DNA of 64,000 nucleotides from Balneolales bacterium (GTDB lineage: Bacteria; Bacteroidota; Rhodothermia; Balneolales; Natronogracilivirgulaceae), in the NCBI GenBank assembly GCA_007134845.1, contig SLKA01000062.1, positions 1-64,000 of the forward strand, read 5' to 3'. Position numbers and translations under genes: made by a program. This document shows, piece after piece, positions 4,209 to 23,845 of the stretch. Within the stretch, counting starts at the first letter, position 1. Each line of letters starts with the position of its first letter. The notes below the pieces were generated by a model that saw only the letters and a list, made by a program, of their open reading frames with translations, ran no database searches and had not been told where the DNA came from.

Positions 4209-5219
4209 CTAAAAATCCCATCCCGTTTCCAGGAATTTACTTTCAATATACTCAATGTGGTCACATGCCATAATTTTTCCTTCTATTTCATTTATAAGTA
4301 GCTCGGCTGCTTTTTTCCCCATTTCCAGGGCTGGCTGGTCAATATAGTACTGTGGATATGGCACCGCACCTCGTATCCCGCTATCACCAAATGCCAGCAT
4401 CTTTATGTCGTCCATCAGCTCCGGAGCAATCTCCTGCATTGCCATGTATGCACCAAGTCCAACCGGATACGTAACTGTAAACAGACCATCCGGAACAATT
4501 CTCCTTTTTAGCAAGGTCTTAAAACCATAGTAACCTGCTTCCTCATCAAAACCACCCTCGACAACCATATCCATTACCGGTTTACTACCATTTTCAGATA
4601 ACGCTTCTTTGTACCCAAGAAGTCTTTCCTTTCCAATGTTTACGTGCTGGTATCCGGCAAGATGTGCAATATTTACACAACCTCGCTTTAATAATTCTGC
4701 AACACCATTTTTGGCAGCTTTTCGGTCATCCATGATAACACTGTTAAAGCCGATTCCCATGATATTTCGATCGAAGAATACCAATGGGACCTGCATCATG
4801 CGAAGCCATTTGTAAAGATCCGTGTTTCTTGTTTCCATTGAAACTGATACCAATAGACCTTCAACCTGCATTGAAAGCAACCCTTCAATATGCTTGTTTT
4901 CCAGTTTTTCGCTCTCTTCCGATAACTTCAAAACAATTTCGTAACCATTAGCATTGGCATGCTTTTGAATTCCGGCAACAATATGCGCAAAAAAATTGTG
5001 GGCAATCTTTGGAACAACCACGCCTATTGTTTTACTTCTGGATGAAGTCAGTGACCGGGCCAAGAGATTAGGTCTGTATCCGAGTTGATCAGCAATTTCT
5101 TTTACCTTCTGTTTTGTATTATCAGAAATATCAGGGTGATTTCGAAGTGCTTTGGATACAGTAACTTTCGTAACATTCAGCCTTAAAGCAATGTCTTTCA
5201 GAGTTACTTTCTTTCTCAT
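4209..5219 (-). CDS. LacI family transcriptional regulator
   Basis: N-terminal HTH VTLKDIALRLNVTKVTVSKALRNHPDIS plus periplasmic-binding-like domain. Confidence 0.93.
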   Translation of the reverse strand: MRKKVTLKDIALRLNVTKVTVSKALRNHPDISDNTKQKVKEIADQLGYRPNLLARSLTSSRSKTIGVVVPKIAHNFFAHIVAGIQKHANANGYEIVLKLSEESEKLENKHIEGLLSMQVEGLLVSVSMETRNTDLYKWLRMMQVPLVFFDRNIMGIGFNSVIMDDRKAAKNGVAELLKRGCVNIAHLAGYQHVNIGKERLLGYKEALSENGSKPVMDMVVEGGFDEEAGYYGFKTLLKRRIVPDGLFTVTYPVGLGAYMAMQEIAPELMDDIKMLAFGDSGIRGAVPYPQYYIDQPALEMGKKAAELLINEIEGKIMACDHIEYIESKFLETGWDF

Positions 5220-5427: not shown

Positions 5428-7428
5428 TCACATCAAGATTTTCCGGCATTCCTCCACAACGCGCTCAACCGTAAACCCAAGCGCTTTCATTGCCTCCCCG
5501 CCCGGTGCCGATTCTCCGAAACGCTCCAGGGAGATGCTTGTTCCGCCGGTTCCGGTGTACCTGCCCCAGCCAAAGGAAACCCCGGCCTCAATCGAAATTC
5601 GCCTTGTGACCTGCGGCGGAAGTACCGAGTTTCGGTATGATTCCGGCTGCTGATCGAACACTTCCTGACATCCCAGGTTCACTACCCTGGCACTGATACC
5701 TTCTTCAAGCAGTTCGTCCCTGGCGCCCAGTGCAAGCTGCACTTCCGATCCTGTTGCTATCAGCGCGAGATCATCGCTGTCACTTCCAGCCATCACATAT
5801 CCGCCTTTGCTGATCCCGCTGGCCGGGGCCACGCCGTTTCTGTCAAAAATGGGCAGTCCCTGACGGGTCAGAATCAACGCTGTCGGCCCATCGGTACGCT
5901 CCAGGGCCATCTGCCATGCATATGCTGTCTCGTTGGCATCGGCCGGGCGAATCACATTCAAATTCGGTATAGTGCGCAACGACGGAATATGCTCTACCGG
6001 TTGATGTGTCGGACCGTCTTCTCCGAGTCCGATACTGTCGTGAGTAAAAACATAAACCACCGGAATACCCATTAGTGCCGCAAGCCGGATTGTCGGACGC
6101 ATATAGTCCGAAAAAACCAGAAAAGTCCCGCCATAGGGCCGCAAGCCTGTAAGCGCCATCCCATTCATAATTGCGCCCATGCCATGCTCGCGAATACCAT
6201 ACCGGATATAGCGGCCGGAATAGTTGTCAGCTGAAAAATCCTGAAGTGTTTTGACCAGTGTGTTGTTCGAGGGCGTCAGATCTGCTGAACCGCCGATGAT
6301 GAACGGACTCTCTCCCACCAGCTTCTCCAACACCTTGCCTGAAGCCTGGCGTGTCGCCATTTTTCCCGCTTCCGGTGAGAATTCGGGAAGTACCTGTTCC
6401 CAGTTTATGGATAATTTTCCTTTCTGAAAGTCGTCAAGCTCCCGGTATAACTCAGGGTGTTTTTCTTTATAAGCAGCAAGTTCATCATCCCAGGTTTTTT
6501 CGAGCTGCGCACCTTTTGCAACCGCCGTCCGGAACACCTCAAGCGCCTTCTCCGGTATGACAAAAGTCTGATCCGGGTCAAAGCCCAGGTTTTTCTTTGT
6601 CAGCCTGGCCTCCTCTTCTCCGAGGGCCGCACCATGAATAGCGGCCGTATCCTGCTTGTTCGGACTGCCATATCCGATATTTGTTTTAGTGGCAATAAGT
6701 GATGGCCGGCCATCACTGTTTTCCAGGCAGCTCACCAACGCTTTTTCAATGGACTGCAGGTCATTGCCATCAGCTGTCACAACATTCCATCCATACCCTT
6801 CATATCTTTTCGGGACATTTTCCGAGAAGGACAGGTCGGTGCTGCCGTCAATAGTTATGCCGTTATCATCATAAAAATAGATCAGGTTGTCCAGTTTCAG
6901 GTGTCCGGCCAGGGAGGCGGCCTCGCTCTGGACCCCTTCCATCATATCACCATCACTTACGATGCCATAAATGTTGTAATCGAAGGGCTTGAAATCATCG
7001 CGATTGAAATAGGCTGCCAGGTATTTCTGAGCAAGTGCCATCCCGACACCGTTGCCGAATCCCTGTCCCAGGGGACCAGTAGTTGTTTCCACACCGGCTG
7101 TATGTCCGTATTCCGGATGCCCAGGCGTCTTGCTGTTGAGCTGACGAAACTGTCGCAGTTCGTCCAGCGGAAGGTCATAGCCGGTCAGGTGCAACAGCGA
7201 ATATAGCAGCATTGAGCCGTGTCCGGCCGACAGCACAAACCGGTCGCGGTTCAGCCAGTGCGGGTTATCAGGATTGTGACGGAGGTATTTGGTCCACAGC
7301 ACAAAAGATAGCGGAGCTGTACCCATCGGCATTCCGGGATGTCCGCAACCTGCGGCTTCCACCGCATCGACGGCCAGGGTTCTAATGGTATTTATGCAAA
7401 GGGTATCGAGATCGTTACTGGATTTCAT
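5428..7428 (-). CDS. tkt: Transketolase
   Basis: Full-length TPP enzyme: [56 protein letters not shown]. Confidence 0.96.
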
Positions 7429-7623
7429 CTGTTTAAATGTTTGGATTTATAATGTCAGATAGAATGCCATGACAGATCTTAATCATACACCTGTGTGTCA
7501 GAACTTGAGCTCTGTCATGGGCATTTCATGTGTTTAAATTTTCCGATTTATAATGTCACATAGAATTCACATGACAGAATGTAATCATGCTCTTGTATGT
7601 TCGGGGCTATCCCGGTCATGGAC
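7422..7623. repeat. Two imperfect tandem copies of a ~101-bp unit immediately upstream of tkt
   Basis: 7422-7522 and 7523-7623 both begin ATTTCATNTGTTTAAAT and share GATTTATAATGTCA.ATAGAAT, CATGACAG, TAATCAT; a third partial head occurs at 7624. Confidence 0.85.
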
Positions 7624-7792
7624 ATTTCATATGTTTTTATCAAATTAAATAAATTTATCAGGTGCTAATGCCCTTCTTGCCTGGCTAGGCGATTACGAAA
7701 GGAAAATTCGTATGCATTCAGGAAATTCATCTCAATTTTCAGGGGGATCATCCCTGCAAGGCAGAGCGATGCAACGTTAATTGTGAATTTTC

Positions 7793-9085
7793 TTACATCG
7801 CATATTCCTGAGGAACATACGCTTTGCATCTCTTTTCAGCAAATATCGGCTTGATTCTGGCAAAACGCTGAATACCATTGACGAGGGGAACACTGACCCA
7901 ATCCTCTCCAATGAGTGGACGTGCATAACGAACGAAATCATCCGTCACATCACAGCGATTTTCGGTAATCCAGTGTGCCGGAAATTCACGTTCGGAATTG
8001 GCAACGTTGTCAAGCGGCACCTTGTCGTAATCCACCATGTAGATATCACCCGGCCGGCGCAGGATCGTAGCCATATACCCCGACCCCTCATCTTTTGCTA
8101 CCATGACGGCTTTTTGTCCGACCCGGTAAGCCTCCTCCAGATCAACAGCAGAAGCATATATCATATTGTGACGCTGATCCGTTCCACTCACATTCACTCT
8201 GGCGGCACCGCGAGCACCGATTCCCACCTCATTAAGATGGTTTACGAGCTTTTGTCCGACCGTGATTTTGCTGGCTGAGAACTGGGTATGACCGAAGGAA
8301 TCTCTGGTTTCCCCGATGTCACCCATGGGAAACCCTTCGCTGACCACCACAATCGAACGACCATGCTTTTTCACATTGTCATTCACATTATCTGTGAGTT
8401 GATCCATCGTGATATCCGATTCCTTCATGAAAATCTGAAGAGGCAGTTCCCGATCCGGATCAGCAAGTCGCGCAGCAGCCGGGATAAACCCGATTTTGCG
8501 CCCCATTACCTGAATAACCATAACGGGGTCTGCAGGTGATGAGCCCTTGTTCTCTTCGTTGGCATTCTGGATATTCAATGCCCAGTAACGTGCCACGCTG
8601 CCGTAACCCGGGGTATGGTCAATCAGCTTGAATTCCGAATCACCCACATCATTGTCGATGGTTTTGGGCACACCGGTACCGACAAGATCCAACCCTTTTT
8701 CCCGGGCCAGTTTGGCCACCTTGTTGGCGGTATCCATGGAATCGTTGCCTCCTATGTAAAAGAAATAGCCGATATTGTGTGCCTTGAGGACTTCAATCAC
8801 CCGGTTAAAATCAGCCTCCTGATGATCTTTTAGCTTATATCTGCACGTTCCGATCGAGCCTGCGGCAGGTGATGTTCTCAGCAGTGCGATCTCATCAGCC
8901 GGCTGAGCCGACATATCGATCAATTCCTCCTTGAGCACACCTTCGATTCCGTGAAGCCCGGCATAGACCGAGCCGAATATTTCCGGAAATTCCTGACAGG
9001 TATCAACAATGGCGCGCAACGAATTGTTGATAACCGGTGTTGGTCCGCCCGACTGGGCTACAAGTACATTTTTTTTATTCATCAT
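7793..9085 (-). CDS. 6-phosphofructokinase, probably pyrophosphate-dependent
   Basis: PFK family: QSGGPTPVINNSL, YIGGNDSMDTANK, VPKTIDNDV (K in the PKTIDND motif and GGND rather than GGDG suggest PPi use). Confidence 0.9.
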   Translation of the reverse strand: MMNKKNVLVAQSGGPTPVINNSLRAIVDTCQEFPEIFGSVYAGLHGIEGVLKEELIDMSAQPADEIALLRTSPAAGSIGTCRYKLKDHQEADFNRVIEVLKAHNIGYFFYIGGNDSMDTANKVAKLAREKGLDLVGTGVPKTIDNDVGDSEFKLIDHTPGYGSVARYWALNIQNANEENKGSSPADPVMVIQVMGRKIGFIPAAARLADPDRELPLQIFMKESDITMDQLTDNVNDNVKKHGRSIVVVSEGFPMGDIGETRDSFGHTQFSASKITVGQKLVNHLNEVGIGARGAARVNVSGTDQRHNMIYASAVDLEEAYRVGQKAVMVAKDEGSGYMATILRRPGDIYMVDYDKVPLDNVANSEREFPAHWITENRCDVTDDFVRYARPLIGEDWVSVPLVNGIQRFARIKPIFAEKRCKAYVPQEYAM

Positions 9086-9110
9086 TTCACCTCCAAAATC
9101 ATCCGGAAAA

Positions 9111-10526
9111 CTATATTTTCAACCATTCCGTGTGGAAAAATCCTTCCTTGTCGATGCGCTCATATGTATGCGCACCGAAATAATCGCGCTGTGCCTGCAG
9201 CAGATTGGCTCCCAGCCGTGCCGAGCGATAGGAATCGTAGTAGTTCAGTGCCGAACTGAATGCAGGGATGGGAATTCCCAGTTTCGAGGCTGTTGAGACC
9301 ACTTCTCTCCATGGCATCTGTGCTTTCTGAATGGATTTGCTGAAATACGGATCCAGTAATAGATTTTTAAGATCGGGATTCTTGTCATAGGCATCCTTGA
9401 TATGCTGCAGAAAATGTGCACGGATGATACAGCCTCCTCTCCAGATCATGGAAATTTCACCCAGACTCAGGTCCCATCCATACTCATCGCTTGCTGTTTG
9501 CATCAACGCAAAACCCTGAGCGTATGAGCAGATTTTAGAGGCATATAGCGCATCGCGAATAGCATTTTTAAACGCTTCTGCATCACCGTCGAATGGCTTG
9601 GTATCCGGACCTGCGAGTAATTTCGAAGCTTCAACGCGCTCCTGCTTCAACGAGGAGATGATTCTTGCAAAAACGGCCTCGGCTATCGTTGGAGTGGAGA
9701 CACCCGTGTCAAGTGCCGCTCTCACCGTCCATTTGCCGGTTCCTTTTTGTCCGGCGGTATCCATTATCACATCCACAAGCGGTTTGCCGGTTTCTGAATC
9801 AGTTTTTCCAAGAATATCGGCAGTGATTTCAATCAGATAGGAATCCAGGTCGCCGGAATTCCATTCGGTGAAGGTTTCATGCAGCTGCTGTGCATCCATA
9901 CCCAATACGTTCTTGAGCAGCAGATAGGCTTCAGTAATCAGCTGCATATCACCATACTCAATCCCATTGTGGACCATTTTGACAAAATGGCCGGCACCGG
10001 CCGTACCGATATGCGTGCAGCACGGGTCACCGTTGACCTGAGCAGAGATTTTAGTGAAGATCGGCTCCACCAGATCATATGCTTCTTTCTGTCCGCCAGG
10101 CATGATGGACGGCCCTTTCAGCGCTCCTTCCTCGCCGCCGCTCACACCTGTGCCGATGAACAAAATGCCTTCATTCTCGAGCCATTGCGATCGGCGTTCG
10201 GTATCCTGATAGTCTGAGTTTCCACCGTCGATAATCAAATCGCCCTCATCCAGGAGCGGAAGCAGAGATTCAATCGTCTTGTCAACCGGCTCACCGGCCT
10301 TGACCATCAGCATGATTTTTCGCGGGCTTTCAATCGCATTGACGAAATCCTCAAGCGTATACGCCGGATGAATATTCTTGCCTTTTGCCTTGTTTTCAGC
10401 AAAGGCTTTGGTTTTCTCTGCCGAACGATTATATACCGCAACGGAGAACCCCTTGGATTCCATATTCATTACAAGGTTTTCGCCCATTACAGCCAGTCCA
10501 ATCAGACCAATATCATTTTTTTTCAT
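9111..10526 (-). CDS. gnd: 6-phosphogluconate dehydrogenase, decarboxylating
   Basis: [53 protein letters not shown]. Confidence 0.96.
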
Positions 10527-10636
10527 AGTCCTATGTATTTTTTTGTTGATTTTCAGATTCAGTCAATCCGCATGGTTTCCAGTAGCATTGCAGACCTTCG
10601 GATTGATTTTATTTTGTATAAATGGTAACAAGTGCT

Positions 10637-11890
10637 TCACAGCACCGGAGCTTCTTCTTTCAAGCGATAAAGTATTTCGCCGGCTTTGGGCACATAAAGT
10701 ATTCCCTCTTCTTCACGATTCCTGAATGCATCAATATCAATGGATGCCGGGTCCATATAGCCCAGATTTATCTTCTTGCATCGCTCCTCGGGAATAGATG
10801 TGGCCAGCACCACATCGACATTCGGTGTCTCCACTCCGTTTTCGTAGGTTCCACTGCCCTTGACATGCGTTGAGTGTGCAAGCACTCCTCTCGGTATATG
10901 CCCGAACCGCTCCATCTGCTTCAAGAAGTAATCACGTACATGGTATCCGATTTCGTCGATATGCTTGCCATGTGTGTAGGATACTTCGGTGATATGAGGG
11001 GCATAAATAATGAGTCTTCCTCCCTTTTCGATCACCGGCTCCAGCTTGTACATGCATTTTCCGGCTGTCCAGACATCTTCATACATCGGAGGCGCCACCG
11101 AGAGCACATCCTTGAAGGGATTGTCCACATACCTGATGTGCTCCTGTGACGACAGATCCGCAGCACGGTCCCATGCATCCTCGGGACTTCCGACAAATAT
11201 GCCTTTCACTCCCTGACCCTTGACCACCATGCTGAAACAGGTTTTGGGCAAATCAACTTTCGACGCCGCCAGATCCACCACCTCACGAATCGGGGTGTAT
11301 TTTGTTCCGATGACCTCACGATTGGTGATTACGGCTCCAAGCCAGTGAAAAAAGTTCAGTATCTCCGGTCCGGATATCCCGGGGAAAAAGTACTTGTTGC
11401 CCCCGGAGAATCCGACAACTTCGTGCGGAAAAGTGGGTGCCAGAACCATCAGATGGTCATAATCATAAATGAGCTTGTTTATATGCACCGGCACATCTTC
11501 CCCGAACAGTCCACCTGAAATCTTTTCAACTTCGGCTTTACGGATCCATCCAATCTCCCTGAGCTGACCAGGATCATCCCAGCGATGGTTATACACCTGA
11601 TAACGCGGGATATCGCTGCCGGCACGACCCAGCATCCGGTCAATCGCCTCATCAGACATGGGTTGATGGGTTCCAAGTGCAATCAGGTAGCTGAGTTCTC
11701 CGGCTCTTTTGCCCAGATATTCATGCATCATCTTGTAAAAGATGTGAAGGGGCATGGTGCGGGTGCTGTCGGGGATGATGACCAGCACCTTTTTCCCATC
11801 CACATCCATATCTGCAAGAGCATCAGCCAAAAAATCGCTGAGCTCCTCTTCTGACAGATTATCCTGCCGGGAAATTTTTTCTTTCACCAT
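10637..11890 (-). CDS. LarA-family (DUF2088) nickel-dependent alpha-hydroxyacid racemase/epimerase homolog
   Basis: PDSTRTMP, GTHQPMS, HEVVGFSGGNKYFFPGISG motifs of LarA homologs. Confidence 0.85.
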   Translation of the reverse strand: MVKEKISRQDNLSEEELSDFLADALADMDVDGKKVLVIIPDSTRTMPLHIFYKMMHEYLGKRAGELSYLIALGTHQPMSDEAIDRMLGRAGSDIPRYQVYNHRWDDPGQLREIGWIRKAEVEKISGGLFGEDVPVHINKLIYDYDHLMVLAPTFPHEVVGFSGGNKYFFPGISGPEILNFFHWLGAVITNREVIGTKYTPIREVVDLAASKVDLPKTCFSMVVKGQGVKGIFVGSPEDAWDRAADLSSQEHIRYVDNPFKDVLSVAPPMYEDVWTAGKCMYKLEPVIEKGGRLIIYAPHITEVSYTHGKHIDEIGYHVRDYFLKQMERFGHIPRGVLAHSTHVKGSGTYENGVETPNVDVVLATSIPEERCKKINLGYMDPASIDIDAFRNREEEGILYVPKAGEILYRLKEEAPVL

Positions 11891-11936
11891 AGATTGTCAG
11901 CCGTTTCCGGTATTTTGAAATGTATGTGTGTGTGAT

Positions 11937-12866
11937 TTATTTCCAAGGTGGCGTTTCCGGAAGATGATCCAGGAATTCTGAAATCAGCTTCTCTTCATAG
12001 CTTCCGGCAAAATCGCCGCGAATAAACACATCGGCGGCTTCCTCGTAAAAACGTTGCCAGGACACATCCTCCTCTCCCGGCATGATCGGATAGAACAAGG
12101 CATTGTTATCCTTGGCCGCCTTCATATCACCCGGGGCATCACCGATCATAAGCACGCGTCCTTCTTTGTACTTGTTTCCTGCAGCCAATGCCAGGTGTTC
12201 CTTTTTGGAACCCATTTCCTGGCCGGCAATGACGCGTACAAAATGATCGATTTTACTTTCACTCCACTCCTTGTTTAAAGCATTTCCCGGTGTCGCCGAG
12301 ACCACCAGCATATCGGCGGTGTCCTGCAGCTTTTCAAGGCTATCCCGCACGTAGGGGAACGGGGGGATCCCGTTAACGATGTCATCAACCGTGCGGTTTA
12401 CCGCATGGCTCCACTCTCGCGCCCGGGCCAGCTCCTCGGTTTCCCCTTTTTCAGCAATGTATTCGTCAAGCGATGGATTGCTCAAGGGTCTGCCCGAATC
12501 GATAAACGCACGCACCTCCGCCAATTCCGGAATCGAAGCTTGTCGTTTCTGCACATCTTTCCAGTCGCGAAGAAGATCCAGGCTCATCACCAGAGCAGGA
12601 AAGCGGTTGATCCCGCGCCACCGTGAATACAGGTTGACAAACTCCGCTGTTTCACGGGCAAATTTTGATACGGCCTGCAGATTCCAGTATTTGATGTTAT
12701 TGGGAATAAAACACTCCTTGTGCTTGATTTCCATGGTATCAAATACGCAGCCATCAGAATCTATTCCAATGAAAAAATCTTTTTCCGGTTGAAGCTCTTC
12801 TAATATCTTATTTGGTTTGTTAGTGCTCATCATATCATCCTTTACTTGTTGGTCGGCAGTAATCAC
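11937..12866 (-). CDS. HAD-superfamily hydrolase
   Basis: GIDSDGCVFDTM motif I, VVSATPG motif II, KKEHL/LMIGDAPGDMKAA motifs III-IV. Start may be an internal Met (MSTNKPNK). Confidence 0.75.
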   Translation of the reverse strand: MITADQQVKDDMMSTNKPNKILEELQPEKDFFIGIDSDGCVFDTMEIKHKECFIPNNIKYWNLQAVSKFARETAEFVNLYSRWRGINRFPALVMSLDLLRDWKDVQKRQASIPELAEVRAFIDSGRPLSNPSLDEYIAEKGETEELARAREWSHAVNRTVDDIVNGIPPFPYVRDSLEKLQDTADMLVVSATPGNALNKEWSESKIDHFVRVIAGQEMGSKKEHLALAAGNKYKEGRVLMIGDAPGDMKAAKDNNALFYPIMPGEEDVSWQRFYEEAADVFIRGDFAGSYEEKLISEFLDHLPETPPWK

Positions 12867-12872
12867 TGCCCA

Positions 12873-14321
12873 TTATGAATTATTCAAATGAATGTTTGCG
12901 GCCATCGGCAGCCGGGAGTATGAAAAATACCGAATGGCATTGCTATAACAGAGTTTTTCGATCAGATTACCCAGCATGCTGTCGTCATCTGGAATGATTC
13001 CAAGTTCTGCATCCGATCCGAGCATGTTGCAGAGTATCCTGCGGAAATATTCGTGTCTGGGGAAGGAAAGAAAACTTCGTGAATCAGTGACCATGCCAAT
13101 AAACTGACTCAATAAGCTTATGTTGGAGAGCGTCTGAAGCTGAGCCTCCATTCCTTCTTTCTGATCGTGGAACCACCAACCCGGACCATGCTGAATTTTA
13201 CCGGGAATACCGTCACCCATAAACGTTCCGATAAGTGAAGCAAGCACTTCGTTATCCGATGAATTCAGGTTATACAGAATCGTTCTGGGAAGCTGATTGT
13301 TCTGCTCCAGTCGATCCAGAAACCGGACAAGTGGCTTGGCAATCTGTGCGTCACCGATGGAGTCAAATCCCGTATCCGGGCCCAATTGCCTGAACATTCT
13401 GGTATTGTTGCTTCTAAGTGCACCAATGTGCATCTGAAATGCCCATCCCTTCTCAAAATCCATCACGGCAAATTCATGCATCAGAGCCGATTTGAATTTC
13501 AAATCATCGTTGGGATCCGGTTTTTTCCCTGTGAGCACGTCACTGAAAATCCGCTCAAGATCATCCTGCAAATAATCAGCGGAATAAGGCTCTTCAATGC
13601 CATGATCCGAGGCACGGCAACCCATCTTGTCAAAGTGATCATGACGCTGCTTCAGCGCTTCCAGAAACGTGGAAAAACCTGTAATACTGATTCCGGAAAC
13701 CGATTCAAGCTTCTTGACATACTTCACGAAACTTGCCGGATCTTCGATCTTCATGGCATTATCCGGTCGAAACGTAGGAAACATCACAAAATCGTTAAAA
13801 TCCTCACCGGCCAGCTTCCGGTGCTCCTCAAGCGTATCGACAGCATCGTCAGTGGAACATATGACATGCACATTCATTTTGCCAAGCAGACTCCGGGGCG
13901 AAAATTCCGGCAATTGAAGCATTTCGTTGGTTTTCTCCCATATTTTCGGCGCCGTATCCTCATTCAGCTGCTCATCTATATCAAAATATCTTTTCAGTTC
14001 AAGATGCGTCCAATGATAAAGCGGGTTTTTCAGGGTTTGCGGGACTGTTTTCGCCCATGCCAGAAACTTGTCCCGGTCCGGCACATCCTTGCCAGTGATC
14101 ATCTGCTCGGGAATACCGGCAGTGCGCATCGCCCGCCATTTATAATGATCGCCTTTAAGCCAGACATCGGTGATATTGGCGTAATTGGAATCCGCCAGTG
14201 TTTCGCCTGGAGGAAGGTGGTTGTGGTAGTCTACAATAGGAAGAGATGCAGCATGCTCATGATACAGCCTTCTCGCCGTATCTGACTGCAGTAAAAAGTC
14301 CTCGTGAATAAATGATTTCAT
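12873..14321 (-). CDS. uxaC: Glucuronate/galacturonate isomerase
   Basis: MKSFIHEDFLLQSDTARRLYHEHAASLPIVDYHNHLPP...; ORF-track start at 14441 is an artefact that runs into upstream SDR pseudogene sequence. Confidence 0.94.
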   Translation of the reverse strand: MKSFIHEDFLLQSDTARRLYHEHAASLPIVDYHNHLPPGETLADSNYANITDVWLKGDHYKWRAMRTAGIPEQMITGKDVPDRDKFLAWAKTVPQTLKNPLYHWTHLELKRYFDIDEQLNEDTAPKIWEKTNEMLQLPEFSPRSLLGKMNVHVICSTDDAVDTLEEHRKLAGEDFNDFVMFPTFRPDNAMKIEDPASFVKYVKKLESVSGISITGFSTFLEALKQRHDHFDKMGCRASDHGIEEPYSADYLQDDLERIFSDVLTGKKPDPNDDLKFKSALMHEFAVMDFEKGWAFQMHIGALRSNNTRMFRQLGPDTGFDSIGDAQIAKPLVRFLDRLEQNNQLPRTILYNLNSSDNEVLASLIGTFMGDGIPGKIQHGPGWWFHDQKEGMEAQLQTLSNISLLSQFIGMVTDSRSFLSFPRHEYFRRILCNMLGSDAELGIIPDDDSMLGNLIEKLCYSNAIRYFSYSRLPMAANIHLNNS

Positions 14322-14341
14322 ATTCGATCCTTGCTTATTCA

Positions 14342-14538
14342 TTAAATAGACATTGATGTGAAGCCACCATCCACCGAAATCATAGCACCCATAACAAAAG
14401 ATGATGCCCTGTCCGAAGCCAGCCATAGCGCGGCACCGCACAATTCATCCGGGTCACCGTAGCGCTGAATGGCCGAGTGCCGCCGACAATTGAGGCGACT
14501 TTATCTTCAAGGCTGAACAGGTCATGCAAATTGCTCAT
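14342..14538 (-). pseudogene. Internally deleted SDR oxidoreductase
   Basis: N-terminal MSNLHDLFSLEDKVASIVGG is joined almost directly to C-terminal QRYGDPDELCGAALWLASDRASSFVMGAMISVDGGFTSMSI*; 197 nt, so the two parts are out of frame. Confidence 0.85.
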
Positions 14539-14683
14539 AGTACCGGGTATGGAATGAATTTTTTGCGTATTTCTATGGATGCTTCATGGCTTTAGATGTA
14601 TCGACGCCTGCCTTGCAAGCATGTTCTATTACCTAAGACGCAGAATTTGCCTTTTGACAGGATAGACACTTTAAAATTGATGA

Positions 14684-15511
14684 TCAGACTCCGCTGAAAG
14701 CTGAGAACCCACCGTCTACAGGCACCACGATGCCATGGACAAACTGTGAAGCCGGTGCCGTCAGCCACATGATTGTGGAAACCAAATCTTTCGGATCCCC
14801 AAAACGCGCAGCCGGAGTGTGATCTATGATAGTCTGCCCCCGATCCGTGAGACTGCCATCGCTTTCATTGGTCAGCAGAAACCGGTTTTGATCCGTCAGC
14901 AGAAAACCGGGAGCAATGGCATTCACTCTGATATTCGTAGAGTAGTTATGCGCCATATGTACGGCCAGCCACTGGGTGAAGTTGCTTACCGCCGCTTTTG
15001 CCGCTGAATAGGCCGGGATTCTGGTCAGTGGAGTGAACGCATTCATAGATGAAATGTTGATGATGTTCCCACTTTTCTGTTCTGCGAAATACTTGCCAAA
15101 AACCTGGCATGGAATAAAAGTCCCCATGAAATTGAGGTCGAAAACCCATTTGATCGCATCTTCAGGGAGATCAAAAAATGGCTTGTCAGGACTGGTTGTC
15201 GCGGTGGGTTTGTTTCCTCCGGCTCCATTGATCAGGATGTCAATACGTCCAAAACGTTCAACGGTTTTCTTTGCAGCCTCCTCGATATTTGCTTTATCCA
15301 TCACATCGGTTTTGATGGCAAGGTGTTCGATTCCCTTTTTTTTCAGCTCTTCGGAAACCACGGCCATCCCTTTTTCGCCAATATCCAGCAGAACAATTTT
15401 TGCTCCGGATTCACCCAGTGCATATGCCATTTCGGCACAAAGTACACCGGCTCCGCCGGTAATGACAGCTACTTTTCCGCTGACATCAAAGTCTTTTGTA
15501 ATTCTCATCAT
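14684..15511 (-). CDS. uxuB: SDR family oxidoreductase, fructuronate reductase (D-mannonate oxidoreductase)-like
   Basis: TGGAGVLCAEMA Rossmann motif, NISSMNAFTPLTRIPAYSAAKAAVSNFTQWLAVH, NAIAPGFLLTDQNR, PVDGGFSAFSGV; resembles the SDR-type UxuB family and lies beside uxaC/uxaE. Confidence 0.75.
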   Translation of the reverse strand: MMRITKDFDVSGKVAVITGGAGVLCAEMAYALGESGAKIVLLDIGEKGMAVVSEELKKKGIEHLAIKTDVMDKANIEEAAKKTVERFGRIDILINGAGGNKPTATTSPDKPFFDLPEDAIKWVFDLNFMGTFIPCQVFGKYFAEQKSGNIINISSMNAFTPLTRIPAYSAAKAAVSNFTQWLAVHMAHNYSTNIRVNAIAPGFLLTDQNRFLLTNESDGSLTDRGQTIIDHTPAARFGDPKDLVSTIMWLTAPASQFVHGIVVPVDGGFSAFSGV

Positions 15512-15607
15512 TCCCTCATTTTTTAATGCTCATTGCGAATTCACCAGACGGAATCAGCTTATCATGAGCTCCTTAATTCATTTTTTCAATTAGTCCTTTA
15601 CAGCCTG

Positions 15608-17188
15608 TCATTGAAATAACACCGTTTTTTCAAACGGCCGGATGTGTTTCCTGAAATGCCGGTAGAGACAGTCTTCGTAAATTGTTTCATTCTCTGTCAA
15701 AACAGACATGATGCGATCACGGAACAGAAGTTCACCATCTGCTCTCCTTTCCGTTAACACCGATCCGAAAGTCACATGGAATACCTGCCGCGCATGATCA
15801 TTATCAAGAAGTCCAGGCATCTCCTCATTGGAATAACTGTCGGGATCAGACAGTTGCTCCGGATCAGCCGAGATATGATAGGTTTTGCGATCGGTATCAA
15901 AACGCTCCAGTGAAAATGTGTAAATTTCACGAAAGAGACCGGGATCCGCAAGCGCAACAGCGCGTAATGCTTCGAGGTAGCTGGTACCCGCTGTTTTTAC
16001 GTGCACGGTACCCACACCAAGACTTCCAATCGCTTCATACACCTCGAATTTATCACTGCCCGAGTGAACACTTAATTTGTATGCACCATAGGCGGCTGCA
16101 ATAGCCTGATGGAGCAGGTACTCACTGCGGAATTCCGAGATATCCCCTTTGAAATCAACCCCCTTCTCAAAGTCACCGCAAAACCTTGGCGCCAGGCTGA
16201 CCAGCTTCACATCCAGACGCTTCAACTCAGAAGCAATCACCAGGTGCTCCTCGGGTGTGGTAGGATGAGGTGTCTCGTCTACCGACAATTCAACCTCGGA
16301 ATCAGCATCCGGATAAGTTTTTTTAAGATAGCGATACATTTCCAGTGTGTGAAGAATGACCCGTCCATATTTCACAGCCGCCTGCAGTATGGCGGAACGG
16401 GAAGGTTGCAGCGTGACATCATTATCCAGTGAAAATGTTACATTTTCATACCGCTTCAAAAAAGCGTCGTGATCGTCACTGAGCTTATCCCACGGAAGTT
16501 CTGAAAAAGCTTGCTGAAGGGAAGGTTCGTCCATGTCAACTACGCGATTATCAACATAATCGCTCGGATCAATGGTATACATGGTGAACCCGGCATCCAT
16601 CATGCGATCAATATCAGCAAATGTTTTCAGATGATCCGCATCGGCACCGAATCTGCCGGTGTAACCTGCCTGCAGAACCGCCCATGTTGCCGCATCCATC
16701 ACTTCCAGTGCGGTCCGGCCGGTTCGGTCCAGCTCTCTGATAGATTGCTGGGCCAGTATCGGAAGAAATGATGATGATTCAAGAGATCGGAGATGAGCAG
16801 CCCCCGCATTGCCAAGCCGATCACCAAATCCAAAAGAATTCCGGTTGCCGAGGGTGGTCGGATTCGTATGGGGCAGTGCGGACCGCAATGCCGATGCATT
16901 GACCGGAGTGAGATCGCACAGCAGATTGCTGTTGCCCCCATGATCCATCTCATCACCTTCAAAACCGACAGGCAGAAACTTCCTGTCTGTGGCTGTAATC
17001 AACAATTTTTTCTCAGCATCCTTTTTCAGGATGTGGTAGTTGCACTGATTTTTACTGGTAACTTGAGAGACAATACGATAATCCTGCATAGCCTGCGGCA
17101 GGATATCAGAAGAAATTGTCGATGCTTCTGATCTTTGTTGTGTTGATTTATTCATACTTGCCTCAATGTTATTCATCATTACAGTCAT
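15608..17188 (-). CDS. uxaE: Tagaturonate epimerase family protein
   Basis: ELSVDETPHPTTPEEHLVIASELKRL, LAPRFCGDFEKGVDF, YKLSVHSGSDKF motifs and uronate context. Start probably an internal Met (MNKSTQQ, ~17155). Confidence 0.8.
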   Translation of the reverse strand: MTVMMNNIEASMNKSTQQRSEASTISSDILPQAMQDYRIVSQVTSKNQCNYHILKKDAEKKLLITATDRKFLPVGFEGDEMDHGGNSNLLCDLTPVNASALRSALPHTNPTTLGNRNSFGFGDRLGNAGAAHLRSLESSSFLPILAQQSIRELDRTGRTALEVMDAATWAVLQAGYTGRFGADADHLKTFADIDRMMDAGFTMYTIDPSDYVDNRVVDMDEPSLQQAFSELPWDKLSDDHDAFLKRYENVTFSLDNDVTLQPSRSAILQAAVKYGRVILHTLEMYRYLKKTYPDADSEVELSVDETPHPTTPEEHLVIASELKRLDVKLVSLAPRFCGDFEKGVDFKGDISEFRSEYLLHQAIAAAYGAYKLSVHSGSDKFEVYEAIGSLGVGTVHVKTAGTSYLEALRAVALADPGLFREIYTFSLERFDTDRKTYHISADPEQLSDPDSYSNEEMPGLLDNDHARQVFHVTFGSVLTERRADGELLFRDRIMSVLTENETIYEDCLYRHFRKHIRPFEKTVLFQ

Positions 17189-17274
17189 TTACCGCTTTTA
17201 GAGAACGTGAACATCGTGCAAGACTAAAACCGATAAGTGAACTACTGCTTATTTACAGATTTACAATTTTTTAT

Positions 17275-18576
17275 TTATGCAAAGCCGAAAAGCCGCGGAA
17301 GAAACAGGCTCAGCTCTTCAAAGTACGTGACGACCATTAGCGAGAACAGCATGGCCAGGAAAAAAGGCAGTAAAGGCCTCACAACCTGTGCAATAGACAG
17401 GTTGGCCACCCCGCATCCCACAAAGAGCACCGTTCCGACCGGAGGTGTGCATAGTCCCACACTCAGATTCAAAATCATCATGATCCCGAAATGGATGGGA
17501 TCCATTCCCAACTCCACTACAACCGGGAGGAAGATGGGAGTGAAAATCAAAACAGCCGGTGTCATATCCATAAATACACCGACAGCCAGCAGGGTCATAT
17601 TGATAATGATCAGAATCAGAAACGGGTTATCGCTGAGCGTGAGCAGACCGGCAGTAACTATCTGCGGAATATTTTCATAGGACATCACCCAGGACATGCC
17701 CAGTGACGTACCAATAAGCAGGGCTACGATCGCAGTCGTGTTGCAACTGTCAAGTATAGCCTTCGGAAGCTCGGAAAACTTAAGTTCACGATTGATTAAA
17801 CAGGCCAGAATGAAGGCATACAGGACAGCAATGGCGGAGGCTTCTGTTGCCGTGAAAATACCGGCAATGATTCCACCAATAACGATGATGATCATCAGAA
17901 GACTGGGGACGGCGCGACCGAATTTTCGAACCACTTCTCTGATAGGAAGCCTGTCGGAAACCGGATACTTTTTCCGGAATGCATAGTATCCGGCGACTAA
18001 CATAATCATCAGTCCGGTGAAAGCACCCGGAAGATAGCCGGCGAGAAACAGGGCGGCTATGGAGACACCGCCACTGGCCAAAGAATAGACAATCAGGATA
18101 TTGCTTGGTGGAATGAGCAATCCGGTCGTTGAGGAGGTGATATTCACGGCTGCACTGTATCCACGGTCATACCCCTGTTTCTGCATCTGAGGCGTCATAA
18201 ACGTACCAACAGCGGAGGCTGCCGCTACAGCAGAACCTGATATCGAGCCAAAAAGCATTGCAGCAATCACGTTGACATAGGCAAGTCCGCCAGGCAGCAT
18301 GCCGACCAGCGCTTTGGCAAAATCAATGAGCCGCTCTGCGATACCTCCCTTGTTCATGAGCTGACCTGCCAGAATAAAAAAAGGTATGGCCAGCAGGGTA
18401 AAACTGTCCAGCCCGGTGCCCAGTCTTTGTGCGATGGTAGTCGCTGCCGGTGTAAAATCAACACTTACCAGCAGCGTCAGTATGGTGGAGATGCCAATGC
18501 TGAATGCCACAGGAACTCCAATAGCCAAAAGAATGACAAAGGTTATGACCAATACAAGAATCCCGAAAATATCCAT
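17275..18576 (-). CDS. dctM: TRAP transporter large permease (DctM)
   Basis: Multi-TM; AIPFFILAGQLMNKGGIAERLIDFA; order DctP-DctQ-DctM. Confidence 0.93.
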   Translation of the reverse strand: MDIFGILVLVITFVILLAIGVPVAFSIGISTILTLLVSVDFTPAATTIAQRLGTGLDSFTLLAIPFFILAGQLMNKGGIAERLIDFAKALVGMLPGGLAYVNVIAAMLFGSISGSAVAAASAVGTFMTPQMQKQGYDRGYSAAVNITSSTTGLLIPPSNILIVYSLASGGVSIAALFLAGYLPGAFTGLMIMLVAGYYAFRKKYPVSDRLPIREVVRKFGRAVPSLLMIIIVIGGIIAGIFTATEASAIAVLYAFILACLINRELKFSELPKAILDSCNTTAIVALLIGTSLGMSWVMSYENIPQIVTAGLLTLSDNPFLILIIINMTLLAVGVFMDMTPAVLIFTPIFLPVVVELGMDPIHFGIMMILNLSVGLCTPPVGTVLFVGCGVANLSIAQVVRPLLPFFLAMLFSLMVVTYFEELSLFLPRLFGFA

Positions 18577-18737
18577 AATTCCGTGCCTGATTCAGCCGCA
18601 CGCCATAAAGCATGCGAATGATTGATTTAATAAATGTCCGATTATTTCATTATCGCCGGAATATTCCATCCCATTTTTACCGGCCCAATCACTATTTGAT
18701 ATATTCATTGAGTTTAAAATGTTCATTATCCAGCATA

Positions 18738-19274
18738 CTACTCAACATGAAGCGAATCTGTTTTTCTGCCGGGATGAAGCGAATCTGTGGCCACATCATC
18801 CTGACGGAATCCGGCTTCTTGCAGTATGAAATCCATGGCATATATTATCATGGCAATACCACTGACCGGCAATACGAGATAGACAAATGACATGGATACA
18901 CCAAGAGCCGGTGAGCTCTGATCCAGGACCCAGGTCAAGATCACAAGCTGAATCCCTCCATACACCAGTACAACCGCTGCAAACAGAGCTATTAGTGAGT
19001 GAATTATGATATTCAGCACGTTTTGCTGTCTGCCTTTCAGTTTCTGGACAAGCAGATCGAGTGCAAGATGCATCCGCTGTCTGTATGCGTATGACGCAGC
19101 CAGCAAACCCAGCCAAATCAAAAGAAAACGGGATAATTCCTCGGTAAATGTAACCGGTGATCCAATTATATAACGCATAAAAACCTGCAGGAGCACCGTA
19201 AACACCAACAGGGTCATGATGAGGATTGACATGCGGGCCAGAATATAGTCAAGTGCTCTAATCAATATATTCAT
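18738..19274 (-). CDS. dctQ: TRAP transporter small permease (DctQ)
   Basis: Four TM segments; FTEELSRFLLIWLGLLAASYAYRQRMHLALDLL. Confidence 0.9.
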   Translation of the reverse strand: MNILIRALDYILARMSILIMTLLVFTVLLQVFMRYIIGSPVTFTEELSRFLLIWLGLLAASYAYRQRMHLALDLLVQKLKGRQQNVLNIIIHSLIALFAAVVLVYGGIQLVILTWVLDQSSPALGVSMSFVYLVLPVSGIAMIIYAMDFILQEAGFRQDDVATDSLHPGRKTDSLHVE

Positions 19275-20262
19275 CGCCGAGCTCCTGTATTTCGAGAAAT
19301 AGTTGATAGAGAACCGGTTGCTGGGCTCTCATGTTTTCGTAAAAAGGTTCGGACGCTTCCATAAATGGCACGCGATCCGGATATATGATTTCGACTCCTG
19401 CCTCTGCAACGGCCCGAAGGGCTTCTTCACTCGCTTCTTGCCACACCTTCCGCTGATAGGGTACCGATTCAAGCGCAGCCTCCTGCACTATAGCACGCTG
19501 CTCCTCATTCAGTACATGCTCCCAGGTATGCCTGGAAATAACCAGGATATCCGGCACGGCGGTATGCTCGTTGAGTGTGTAATACTGCGAGACCTCATAA
19601 TGTCGTGACAGATAAAAACTTGGAGGATTGTTTTCTGCACCGTCAACAACTCCCTGCTGCAATGCAGTGTACAATTCACCCCAGGAGATCGGAGTGGCAG
19701 ATCCACCAAGTGTATTGACCATTCGTATAGCCGAAGGGCTTTCCTGCACGCGAATACTTAATCCCTGAAGATCTTGCGGAGTTCGGACGGGCCTGTTGGT
19801 TGTATAGAAACTCCGGGTTCCGGCATCATAATAGCAAAGTCCAACGATGCGATAAGGCTCACTGGCATCCAGAATTCGTCTCCCCATCGGACCATCAAGA
19901 ATCGAATACATGTGCTCATCATTGACAAAAAGAAATGGAACGCTGAAAATTGAAAACACAGATGTAAAGCTCTCCATCACTGCAGCAGAGACCTTGGTGA
20001 TATCCAGGCTTCCTATCTGAAGCAGTTCGAGAGTTTGACGTTCGGTACCCAACTGCTCATTGGGATAGATGTCGATGCGCATGGACCCGTCGGATTTTTC
20101 CTTGACCAGTTCTGCCATGCGCATCATGCCCTCATGCACCGGATGCGACGAATCCAGGCCATGACCAAGTCTCAAGACGACCGTATCATCATCGACACGA
20201 CAACCAGATAATATTAGAATTGAAAATAATAGAATCGCAACTCGCGAAAGTGTACAGGTCAT
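19258..20262 (-). CDS. dctP: TRAP transporter substrate-binding lipoprotein (DctP)
   Basis: Lipoprotein signal LILSGCRVDD; LRLGHGLDSSHPVHEGMMRMAELV; GVVDGAENNPPSF. Confidence 0.93.
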   Translation of the reverse strand: MTCTLSRVAILLFSILILSGCRVDDDTVVLRLGHGLDSSHPVHEGMMRMAELVKEKSDGSMRIDIYPNEQLGTERQTLELLQIGSLDITKVSAAVMESFTSVFSIFSVPFLFVNDEHMYSILDGPMGRRILDASEPYRIVGLCYYDAGTRSFYTTNRPVRTPQDLQGLSIRVQESPSAIRMVNTLGGSATPISWGELYTALQQGVVDGAENNPPSFYLSRHYEVSQYYTLNEHTAVPDILVISRHTWEHVLNEEQRAIVQEAALESVPYQRKVWQEASEEALRAVAEAGVEIIYPDRVPFMEASEPFYENMRAQQPVLYQLFLEIQELGDEYID

Positions 20263-20494: not shown

Positions 20495-22690
20495 TTATTT
20501 CACGAAGAGCATTTCGCGATAGGATGGCAGCGGCCAGTAGTCGTCGGCCACCAGTTTCTCCAGCTTGTCAGCCAGTTCACGAACCTTGTTCATTTCCGGG
20601 AGCACCACCTGTGAAAGGTGCTTTGCTTTTTCCGGCACGGTGTCACCGCCAAGATCCGCATTCACTTTGCCAAGCTTGTCCACTGCAACCAGGAGCTGAC
20701 TCAATACGGTGTTAACCTCCTCAGCAAGCGTTTTTGTGGATGATATATCCAGGCTGCTTGACTTGCCCCGATCATTGACCGCAAGGATTTCATTCAAATA
20801 CCGGATTGCCGATGGAACAATCATGGTACGAACGATATCCTCTGTGGTTTCAGCTTCGATATTGAGCTTGATGAAATACTGTTCAAGATATATTTCCTGG
20901 CGCGCTTCCAGCTCCAGCTCGGAAAGCACATGGTATTTCTCAAAGAGCTCAATCGTCTTTTTATCGGTCAGGTAGGGAAGAGCATCCATCGTGGTTTTCA
21001 GATTCAGCAATCCACGTTTTTTTGCTTCCTTCTGCCAGTCATCGGAGTACCCGTCACCATGGAACAGGATGTTATCAATCTCACTTAAGGTTTGCTGCAA
21101 TACGACTTCCAGTGCATCCTCCAGGTCACTTCCCTTGTCCATTTCTGCTTCAAGAGCAGTTGTCATGACATCTATCGAGCTAGCCACTGTTGTATTCAGT
21201 ATGGCCATCGGAAAAGATACCGTCTGTTCGGAACCGACAGCGCGGAACTCAAACTTATTGCCTGTAAAGGCAAAGGGCGAGGTTCTGTTGCGGTCCCCGG
21301 CGTGCTTGGGAATGGTAGGAAGTACGGGAATTCCCAGTCCGAGTAGTCCGCCCTCCTTCGAGCTCTTGGCTTTGCCGGATTTAAGCTGGTCAACAATATC
21401 ATCCAGTTGTTCGCCAATATAAGCAGAGATGATTGCAGGCGGAGCTTCGTTTGCACCGAGCCGGTGATCGTTGCCTGCACTGGCTATGGAAGCCCGAAGC
21501 AACCCCTGATAATCGTGCAATGCCTTAAGTGATGCAGCAAAGAAGAACAGAAACTGCATATTTTCATGCGGACTGTCACCAGGTTCCAGCAAATTGGCAC
21601 CTCTGCTGGTGACCATGGACCAGTTGGCATGCTTGCCGCTGCCGTTAAGTCCTGCAAACGGTTTTTCATGCAGAAGACAAACCAGACCGTACTTCCTGGC
21701 AATTTTTTTCAGCATGATCATTGTAATCTGTTGATGATCAGCCGCTACATTCGCCTTTTCAAAAACCGGCGCTATTTCATACTGGCTTGGTGCCACTTCG
21801 TTGTGCCGCGTTTTGACCGGCACACCTATCCGGTACAGCTCTCTTTCCGCCTCCAGCATGAAGGAGAGAATCCGGTCCGGAATGGATCCGAAATAGTGAT
21901 CGTCCAGTTCCTGTCCTTTGGGGGGTTTTGCCCCAAAAAGTGTTCGTCCGGATGTAAGCAGATCCGGGCGACGATAGAAGTACTCCTGATCAATCAGGAA
22001 ATACTCCTGTTCAAAGCCACCGGTTGCATTCACCCATCTCAGGTCTTTTACTCCAAAAAGATTCAGTGCACGCAATGCCTGTATATTCAGGGCCTCAACC
22101 GAGCGTAAAAGAGGAGTTTTGAAATCAAGCGATTCACCTTTCCAGGATGCGAATACCGTTGGAATACACAGTGTAGAGCCCCTTCCATTTTCGATGATAA
22201 AGGCAGGTGAGGTGGGATCCCAGGCTGTATACCCGCGCGCTTCGAATGTCGGACGCAGCCCGCCGCTCGGGAAACTTGATGCATCGGGTTCGCCCCGCAT
22301 CAAATCATTTCCGGAAAACTGGGTGATGGCGCCCCCACCTTGGTTCGGAGTGATAAAGCTGTCGTGCTTTTCAGCCGTAAAACCGGTCAGCGGTTGGAAC
22401 CAGTGAGTGTAGTGGGTCGCCCCTTTTTCCGTAGCCCATTCTTTCATGACCACGGCGACCGCATCAGCCACTTCATAATCCAGCGGGGCATTGTCGCGAA
22501 TTGTTTTTTTCAGAATTTTCCAAACGCTGCCCGGAAGCCGCTCCTTGAGTGTGTCAATGGAAAGACAGCTTTCACCAAATATTTTGGCTATGTTCATATC
22601 CATTTTCTGCGAACCATTTCTGGCAATAAGGGTGGCTTCCGCCTTTCTGACGGCTTCCAGTGCATCGAATCTCTTATACGATTTGCTCAT
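20495..22690 (-). CDS. glnN: Glutamine synthetase type III
   Basis: 731 aa; [54 protein letters not shown]. Confidence 0.95.
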
Positions 22691-22936
22691 GAAAAAATAC
22701 TCTTATGGTTTTTGTTTTTTTCATTAACGAGAACAGGACAAATATAAGATTTTATCATAAAAAGTCCATAATTTTTTAATTAGAAATTATTTTTAGACTA
22801 ATATTTTCATACTGCATGAATGTTATGCTTTATACATTACAAAAAAGCGCTTCCAATAAAGGTTTCAAATTATAACTTCCTTTGTTTTCACTATTTTATC
22901 AGACAACAAGTCATTTGCAATAAGTTCATTATTTAT

Positions 22937-23818
22937 ATGAAAATTTCCTCCTGGCTGGAAGCGGCACGTCTCAGAACATTACCGGCATCACTTGTTCCAG
23001 TGATGGTCGGGAGCTCACTTGCCTGGAGCCATGACCTTTTTCATCTGCCTGCAACGCTCGTGGCACTCGTCTGTGCCATCCTCATCCAGATTGCAACCAA
23101 TTTCGCCAACGATTATTTTGATTTCCGCAACGGAGCTGACACTATCGACCGTGTTGGTTTTACAAGAGCCTCGGCATCCGGTGAAATCACTCCCAAAACC
23201 ATATTATCAGCCGCTTTGATGACTTTTTCCCTGGCATTCTTACTCGGACTCTATCTGGTATTCCATGCCGGCTGGCCGATTCTCGTGATCGGACTGCTTT
23301 CCATCACCTCGGGACTTCTTTATACCGGTGGCCCGTTTCCGCTTGCCTACAATGGACTCGGTGATCTCTTTGTTTTTATATTTTTCGGAATTGCAGCTGT
23401 CATGGGTACCTACTATGTCAATGCCCTGCAATGGTCCACGGAAGCTTTCTGGGCTGCTGTTGCCGTCGGCTCACTCTCCACTATGATCCTGGTTGCCAAT
23501 AACTACCGTGATGTTCATACCGATCGCAAGGCAAATAAAAAAACACTTGTTGTTCTGCTGGGCGAACGTTTTGCACGCTGGCAGTTTCTGATTCTGGCTG
23601 TTGCCGCTTTTGCCATTCCTCCGCATTTTTATTTCCGAGAAGACTATGATACTATAGTATTTCTGCCTATGATTCTGATAATTCCGGCTTTATTTCTAAT
23701 CCTTAATTTCTGGAAAGAAAACCGGAAAGAAAAGTACAACATAATTCTGGTCCGGACAGCCCAGTTAATGACCGCATTTGGTGTTCTTTTTTCACTGGGA
23801 ATTGTGCTGTCACATTAA
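22937..23818 (+). CDS. menA: 1,4-dihydroxy-2-naphthoate polyprenyltransferase
   Basis: UbiA family; MKISSWLEAARLRTLPASLVPV, NFANDYFDFRNGADT, NNYRDVHTDRKANKKTL. Start taken at the internal Met. Confidence 0.93.
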   Translation: MKISSWLEAARLRTLPASLVPVMVGSSLAWSHDLFHLPATLVALVCAILIQIATNFANDYFDFRNGADTIDRVGFTRASASGEITPKTILSAALMTFSLAFLLGLYLVFHAGWPILVIGLLSITSGLLYTGGPFPLAYNGLGDLFVFIFFGIAAVMGTYYVNALQWSTEAFWAAVAVGSLSTMILVANNYRDVHTDRKANKKTLVVLLGERFARWQFLILAVAAFAIPPHFYFREDYDTIVFLPMILIIPALFLILNFWKENRKEKYNIILVRTAQLMTAFGVLFSLGIVLSH

Positions 23819-23845
23819 CCTCCCTTACCTCAGAACTCTACTCCT

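Follow-up and report, generated by a model that had tools for sequence, protein, structure and literature searches.

The 64,000-nucleotide stretch analysed here (the window), which lies on a contig of 79,782 bases from a Balneolales metagenome-assembled genome (MAG; 2.6 Mb in 141 contigs, 80.6% complete), encodes on its minus strand a uronate cluster in which, as we read it with a probability of about 0.6, D-mannonate is epimerized to D-gluconate by a nickel-pincer LarA homolog, gluconate is phosphorylated by a phosphofructokinase (PFK)-like protein and 6-phosphogluconate dehydrogenase (Gnd) comes last. Most of the route has been described before; what is new, and can be put to the test, is a clade of the PFK fold as a likely gluconate or mannonate kinase. 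Judged by its sequence and gene neighbourhood, the PFK-like protein of the window is probably a gluconate (or mannonate) kinase dependent on pyrophosphate (PPi), and the wider proposal, that a PFK-A-fold clade of about ten phyla has turned into a sugar-acid (gluconate/mannonate 6-)kinase, probably PPi-dependent, and constitutes a third, unrecognized gluconokinase family, appears to us slightly better than an even bet.

In the proposed mechanism, a TRAP transporter would import galacturonate and/or glucuronate, UxaC would isomerize the imported uronates, UxaE would turn tagaturonate into fructuronate and a short-chain dehydrogenase/reductase (SDR) would reduce fructuronate to D-mannonate. After epimerization of D-mannonate to D-gluconate by the LarA homolog, the PFK-like protein, and not a classical gluconokinase, would phosphorylate gluconate to 6-phosphogluconate, probably with PPi as the donor, and Gnd would make ribulose 5-phosphate for the pentose-phosphate pathway; a phosphatase of the HAD superfamily probably clears a wrongly phosphorylated acid such as 6-phosphomannonate. 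All genes named in an earlier note on this DNA (the original prediction) are real and complete minus-strand open reading frames at the positions it gave, each with family support, and the gene run it described is confirmed, with the LacI-family gene lying just beyond its span of 5428–20262. These gene identities are directly established, and the gene order of the cluster, listed below, is kept in relatives.

4209–5219, minus strand: LacI-family regulator, probable local regulator (PF00356/PF00532); adjoins the cluster in the related genomes G010, G012 and G002 too
5428–7428, minus strand: transketolase Tkt (TIGR00232, 885 bits)
7793–9085, minus strand: PFK-like protein, a kinase with the PFK-A fold that falls in a clade of its own and is proposed to act as a gluconate (or mannonate) 6-kinase (NF010675, PPi-type signature D115/K141)
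9111–10526, minus strand: 6-phosphogluconate dehydrogenase Gnd (TIGR00873, 758 bits)
10637–11890, minus strand: LarA-superfamily nickel-pincer 2-epimerase of the GntE2 type, predicted to convert D-mannonate to D-gluconate (Lar_N, 76 bits; 4NAR, E 1e-70)
11937–12866, minus strand: HAD-superfamily phosphatase with an enlarged cap, proposed metabolite-repair phosphatase (HAD_2, 36 bits)
12873–14441, minus strand: uronate isomerase UxaC (PF02614, 669 bits)
14684–15511, minus strand: SDR fructuronate reductase/D-mannonate oxidoreductase of the UxaD type (NF006132 'D-mannonate oxidoreductase', 381 bits against a cut-off of 281)
15608–17188, minus strand: tagaturonate/fructuronate epimerase UxaE (PF16257, 526 bits)
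17275–18576, minus strand: TRAP large permease DctM, presumably for uronate uptake (PF06808, 415 bits)
18738–19274, minus strand: TRAP small permease DctQ (PF04290)
19258–20262, minus strand: TRAP solute-binding protein DctP (TIGR00787, 233 bits)

The epimerase and the known route

Among solved structures the LarA homolog finds a single clear relative, 4NAR; lactate/malate racemases match at 1e-7 or worse. 4NAR shows, in the apo form, GntE2 of Thermotoga maritima, an enzyme that makes D-gluconate from D-mannonate and acts on the unphosphorylated acid with a kcat of 197/s (PMC7583248). The published GntE2 residues R41, K164, H180, E155, S156 and G286 (PMC7583248) were recovered by the alignment, which indicates that the register of the comparison is right. 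At the equivalents of the reference positions for binding of the nickel-pincer nucleotide (R75, K184 and H200) and for catalysis (D72, H108, H174 and K298), the window protein carries D41, R44, H75, H156, K166, H182 and K278, which are kept in 44 of 44 aligned epimerases, gaps in one shortened row excepted. The signature of LarA groups 18–20, a Glu followed by Val or Ser after the catalytic His and a Trp in helix 11 (PMC7583248), is present as E157 V158 and W274, so that the window protein agrees with GntE at each of the ten positions compared for cofactor binding, catalysis and signature. With GntE2 as the closest relative and the signature residues kept, the assignment as a mannonate/gluconate 2-epimerase that would feed Gnd is supported at the level of sequence; mannonate/gluconate epimerization, like the function of UxaE, was established by others on homologs.

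The LarA homolog is the sole Lar_N protein detected in this MAG. The original prediction had named missing larB, larC and larE genes as an argument against itself, and a search of this MAG (80.6% complete) indeed turned up neither larC nor larE. Of the nine family genomes that bear the LarA homolog, however, seven have both genes, and the two without them are the least complete (73% and 80.6%). A further family genome, G003, is without the LarA homolog, larC and larE, and a whole larC-larE-larB operon was read in G002.

The route from uronate through mannonate, gluconate and 6-phosphogluconate to ribulose 5-phosphate is already known. Its portion from mannonate to the pentose-phosphate pathway was proposed in 2012 (Rodionova, as cited in PMC7583248 and PMC6978723), the UxaR regulon of T. 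maritima has been published as gnd-uxaRED-gntEK with kdgAK-uxuBA, both branches in one regulon (PMC3750489), and the mannonate/gluconate epimerase of this species was assayed in 2020 (PMC7583248). Because the route is published for T. maritima, the cluster of the window, in which the complete T. maritima-type set of UxaC, UxaE, UxaD-type SDR, GntE and Gnd is encoded together, is a further member and not a new pathway; of the alternative hexuronate pathway announced by the original prediction, the link from the epimerase to Gnd holds, but it had already been proposed. The two systems share the steps from mannonate through gluconate to 6-phosphogluconate, but T. maritima has gntK in its cluster, ABC uptake and UxaR, whereas the window cluster is without gntK and has the PFK-like and HAD genes, TRAP uptake and LacI control.

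That the route replaces the UxuA-KdgK-KdgA branch does not hold as a general claim, because three sister genera carry both branches in one cluster, as T. maritima has the UxuA branch alongside. In G017 and G018, uxuA, kdgK and kdgA lie in the same cluster as LarA-Gnd-PFK (kdgA was called by family score in G017 and via L143, a copy of the same contig, in G018), and G002 has uxuA and kdgA there. Within the genus of the window the cluster lacks uxuA, and one of six genomes checked, G008, has the gene at another place; kdgA adjoins the LacI gene in the congener G010 and has the same place on a contig of a second congener, G012.

A phosphofructokinase-like protein as the probable gluconate or mannonate kinase

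Gluconate phosphorylation in T. maritima is the task of GntK, whose gene is inside the cluster (PMC3750489). We searched for the two known gluconokinase families, P-loop GntK and FGGY. None of the LarA-bearing family genomes has a P-loop GntK above the cut-off; the only one of twelve family genomes that does, G001, is without the LarA/PFK pair, and another 24 genomes with the cluster PFK-like gene yielded none above the cut-off either. No FGGY gluconokinase scored above the cut-off in 20 genomes, and no FGGY match whatever was obtained in G002 (97% complete), G283 (99%), G081 (99%) and G423. As LarA, Gnd and the PFK-like gene are present in G002 (Balneolota), G283 (an Ignavibacteria MAG) and G423 (KSB1), three separate lineages have the pathway but neither known kinase family. 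One of the two FGGY matches of the window MAG is best described as xylulokinase-like and the other fits no NCBIfam family; the FGGY kinases examined in the family are best xylulokinase-, glycerol kinase-, ribulokinase-, pentulose kinase- or rhamnulokinase-like. The absence of known gluconokinases is a direct observation and agrees with the original prediction, which had found none in the window: the cluster lacks gntK, and the gluconokinase (GntK or FGGY) required by a T. maritima-type pathway is missing. No report of a PFK-like gluconokinase was found in the literature searched.

The PFK-like protein is a third paralog in a genome that already has two other PFKs. Each of the nine family genomes that bear the LarA homolog has it too (one as a fragment at a contig end), and the three checked that have no LarA homolog lack it. 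When GTDB genomes were scanned with an alignment of the PFK-like protein alone, 478 relatives came up; the best 80 of these, from about ten phyla, were taken as loci. Around the PFK-like gene, in the 35 loci with at least 4 kb on both sides, Gnd was found in 32, the HAD gene in 29, a LarA-type epimerase in 28, the mannonate-type SDR in 27, UxaE in 13 and transketolase in 3; GntK was found in none of the 80. Within these conserved neighbourhoods, minimal clusters expose the core, as LarA-PFK-Gnd (L214) and SDR-HAD-LarA-Gnd-PFK (L156, the complete genome of Roseithermus sacchariphilus, CP030158.1). The epimerase in these loci is mostly of the window type, with a group-18 type in Bacteroidota and Ignavibacteria, for which NF052594 scored above its cut-off in both proteins tested. 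The PFK-like protein and GntK swap places beside the epimerase, as expected if both do the same job; with two GntK loci, this exchange is a hint at a shared task.

As a protein, the candidate kinase belongs to NF010675 (PPi-type PFK), with 380 bits against a curated cut-off of 273, a subfamily model whose score does not settle the substrate. It retains the PPi-type D115 and K141 and the catalytic TIDND, and its AlphaFold2 model (predicted local distance difference test, pLDDT, 80.6) matches 3k2q and 3hno, annotated PPi-PFKs with 35–36% identity and a TM-score of about 0.83 by query length. It shares the fold, the catalytic loop and the PPi-type Asp/Lys with these two, but forms a separate clade marked by an insertion behind the catalytic loop, by GTDQR in place of DYLQR, and by R206 and PADP motifs. 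Of the ligands of the 6-phosphate in Escherichia coli PfkA, which we take to be R162, R243 and H249, only R243 is retained; P187 stands for R162 and T302 for H249 in 78 of 78 aligned members. The clade has 100/100 support; its stem measures 2.9 changes per site, compared with end branches of about 0.05–0.3 despite some ten phyla, and 26 of its invariant residues were seen in none of twelve other PFKs. The clade-specific P187, R206 and D303 lie in or beside active-site segments, and the insertion follows directly after the catalytic loop.

Weighing the substrate of the kinase

Several points weigh against a sugar-acid kinase. NF010675 names its group fructose 6-phosphate (F6P) phosphotransferase. 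The loss of R162 and H249, considered as proof of a substrate other than F6P, was ruled out by seven further PFKs of the same broad group; it is not diagnostic and proves nothing alone, because several other NF010675-like PFKs vary there too and are without these ligands. The residue and tree comparisons rest on twelve outside PFKs, whose long branches are placed with little certainty, and the 80 loci were retrieved through two peptide patterns, so that two of the 26 residues, E178 and G76 (beside the second motif), which lie in or adjoin these patterns, were favoured by the retrieval. In some loci (L153, L175 and L202) the stretch read contains the PFK-like gene but no LarA gene, and in G081 the PFK-like gene adjoins UxaC, UxaE and the HAD gene with neither LarA nor Gnd nearby. 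Many Chloroflexi genomes hold FGGY kinases below the strict cut-off, which may be gluconokinases, because such a cut-off can miss real enzymes, and a gluconate kinase of an unrecognized family may be encoded elsewhere.

The PFK-like protein could instead be an ordinary PPi-PFK, or a sedoheptulose-7-phosphate kinase, draining the products of the pentose-phosphate pathway, with the gluconokinase an unrecognized gene elsewhere. The NF010675 assignment and the annotation of the closest structures as PPi-PFKs fit this, as do the preference of a Methylococcus PPi-PFK for sedoheptulose 7-phosphate (cited in PMC5673643) and the presence of transketolase in the cluster of this genus, as also of G002. 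However, the genome already has two other PFKs, transketolase accompanies the gene in 3 of the 35 loci as against 27–29 for the LarA, HAD and SDR genes, which have no tie to F6P, and the long stem and the 26 clade-specific residues would be unexpected of an ordinary PFK; we regard this explanation as unlikely. The original prediction had placed the PFK as an F6P kinase at the end of the pathway, whereas the evidence points to the missing gluconate/mannonate kinase instead.

The kinase and the epimerase could also act in the reverse order, the PFK-like protein making 6-phosphomannonate from D-mannonate and the LarA homolog epimerizing that to 6-phosphogluconate. Both activities were measured in extracts of Lactobacillus suebicus, for which the genes are unknown (PMC6978723), and adjoining kinase and epimerase genes suit either order; yet the relative GntE2 converts mannonate in its unphosphorylated form at the rate given above (PMC7583248) and the LarA homolog keeps the GntE signature residues, which makes the reversal rather improbable. 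The galacturonate pathway of L. suebicus shares with the window the C2 epimerization that links the isomerase route to 6-phosphogluconate, but has the kinase first, on mannonate, and a phosphoketolase at the end (PMC6978723). Least probable of all is a case like that of group 19, in which the substrate of the LarA homolog is another uronic or aldaric acid and mannonate is incidental: the Michaelis constant of the GntE enzymes for mannonate is high and the authors were cautious over GntE1 (PMC7583248), but the closest relative, GntE2, has matching context and activity, and across phyla LarA is flanked by the SDR, a mannonate producer, and Gnd, a gluconate consumer.

Hexuronates rank among the main products of the breakdown of pectin and algal polysaccharides. 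If phosphorylation of gluconate or mannonate by the PFK-like clade is correct, the hundreds of genomes with an extra 'PPi-phosphofructokinase' (the 478 relatives) may encode a gluconokinase that represents a new fold family. The route, regarded so far as peculiar to Thermotoga, would then occur widely, among others in Chloroflexota, Bacteroidota, Acidobacteriota, Balneolota and KSB1, and PPi as the donor would alter the energy balance of uronate fermentation.

The phosphatase, related clusters and neighbouring genes

The HAD protein has all catalytic motifs, and D36xD38, S190, K221 and D243/D247 are invariant in 28 orthologs; its model (pLDDT 93.5) shows an unusually large cap, and in most loci its gene sits beside either LarA or the PFK-like gene. 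Removal of wrongly made 6-phosphomannonate is our guess for its role, and would be plausible with a kinase of loose specificity. Identification with a known enzyme failed, with no meaningful sequence match in the PDB and no fold match beyond generic HADs with a C1 cap, for which the TM-score by query length is at most about 0.5. In L101–L107 (family f13), HAD orthologs adjoin two genes whose products, by eye, resemble a TIM-barrel sugar isomerase and a shikimate dehydrogenase, and no LarA; because this one family has the HAD without LarA, the HAD is not specific to the LarA route and serves some other route there.

The two loci with GntK are on plasmids of the Gammaproteobacteria Saccharobesus litoralis (NZ_CP026605.1) and Catenovulum adriaticum (NZ_CP109967.1). 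Both share UxaC and a LarA of the hexonate-epimerase kind with the window, C. adriaticum in addition a homologous TRAP transporter (DctM 63%) and S. litoralis UxaE and Gnd, but GntK is fused to or adjoins LarA, LarA resembles the group-18 type (55–56% to an NF052594 member), and the cluster includes larB, in C. adriaticum also larC; the stretches read contain neither a PFK-like nor a HAD gene. In S. litoralis (L261:7500–9269; 151759–153528 of the plasmid), a 589-residue protein annotated as gluconokinase only has LarA fused behind a GntK domain, with larB, uxaE, gnd and uxaC as gene neighbours, and is predicted to be a bifunctional mannonate 2-epimerase/gluconokinase. In C. adriaticum (L262:7498–11778), GntK, the group-18-like LarA, larC, a gene with a larE-like start but no Pfam match, and larB form a run which follows the TRAP transporter and uxaC, with cofactor and pathway genes together.

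Within the window, the true start of UxaC is probably near codon 40, as the PF02614 match starts at residue 41. An upstream search for a LacI operator yielded no shared CG-centred palindrome, and no RNA elements or tRNAs were found in the window. The nearest named relatives are Balneolales/Balneolaceae MAGs, several of which are placed by their isolate names in one sediment sample series. In the congener G010 (L019), UxaE is absent from its usual place and a second SDR, with 31–32% identity to the first, is found instead; a related SDR precedes UxaC in G012 and G007, where the contig end cuts the region upstream. A PdxB-like 2-hydroxyacid dehydrogenase with DUF3410 lies near LarA, Gnd and PFK in 12 of the 80 loci, for example at L174:5136–6335, and also at L022:1597–2880. 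Adjoining the cluster, a type III glutamine synthetase is encoded at 20495–22690 of the window, and G008 also has one upstream of its cluster; on the plus strand at 22820–26778, a UbiA prenyltransferase, a MenC-like enolase and an AMP-binding ligase resemble menA-menC-menE of menaquinone synthesis.

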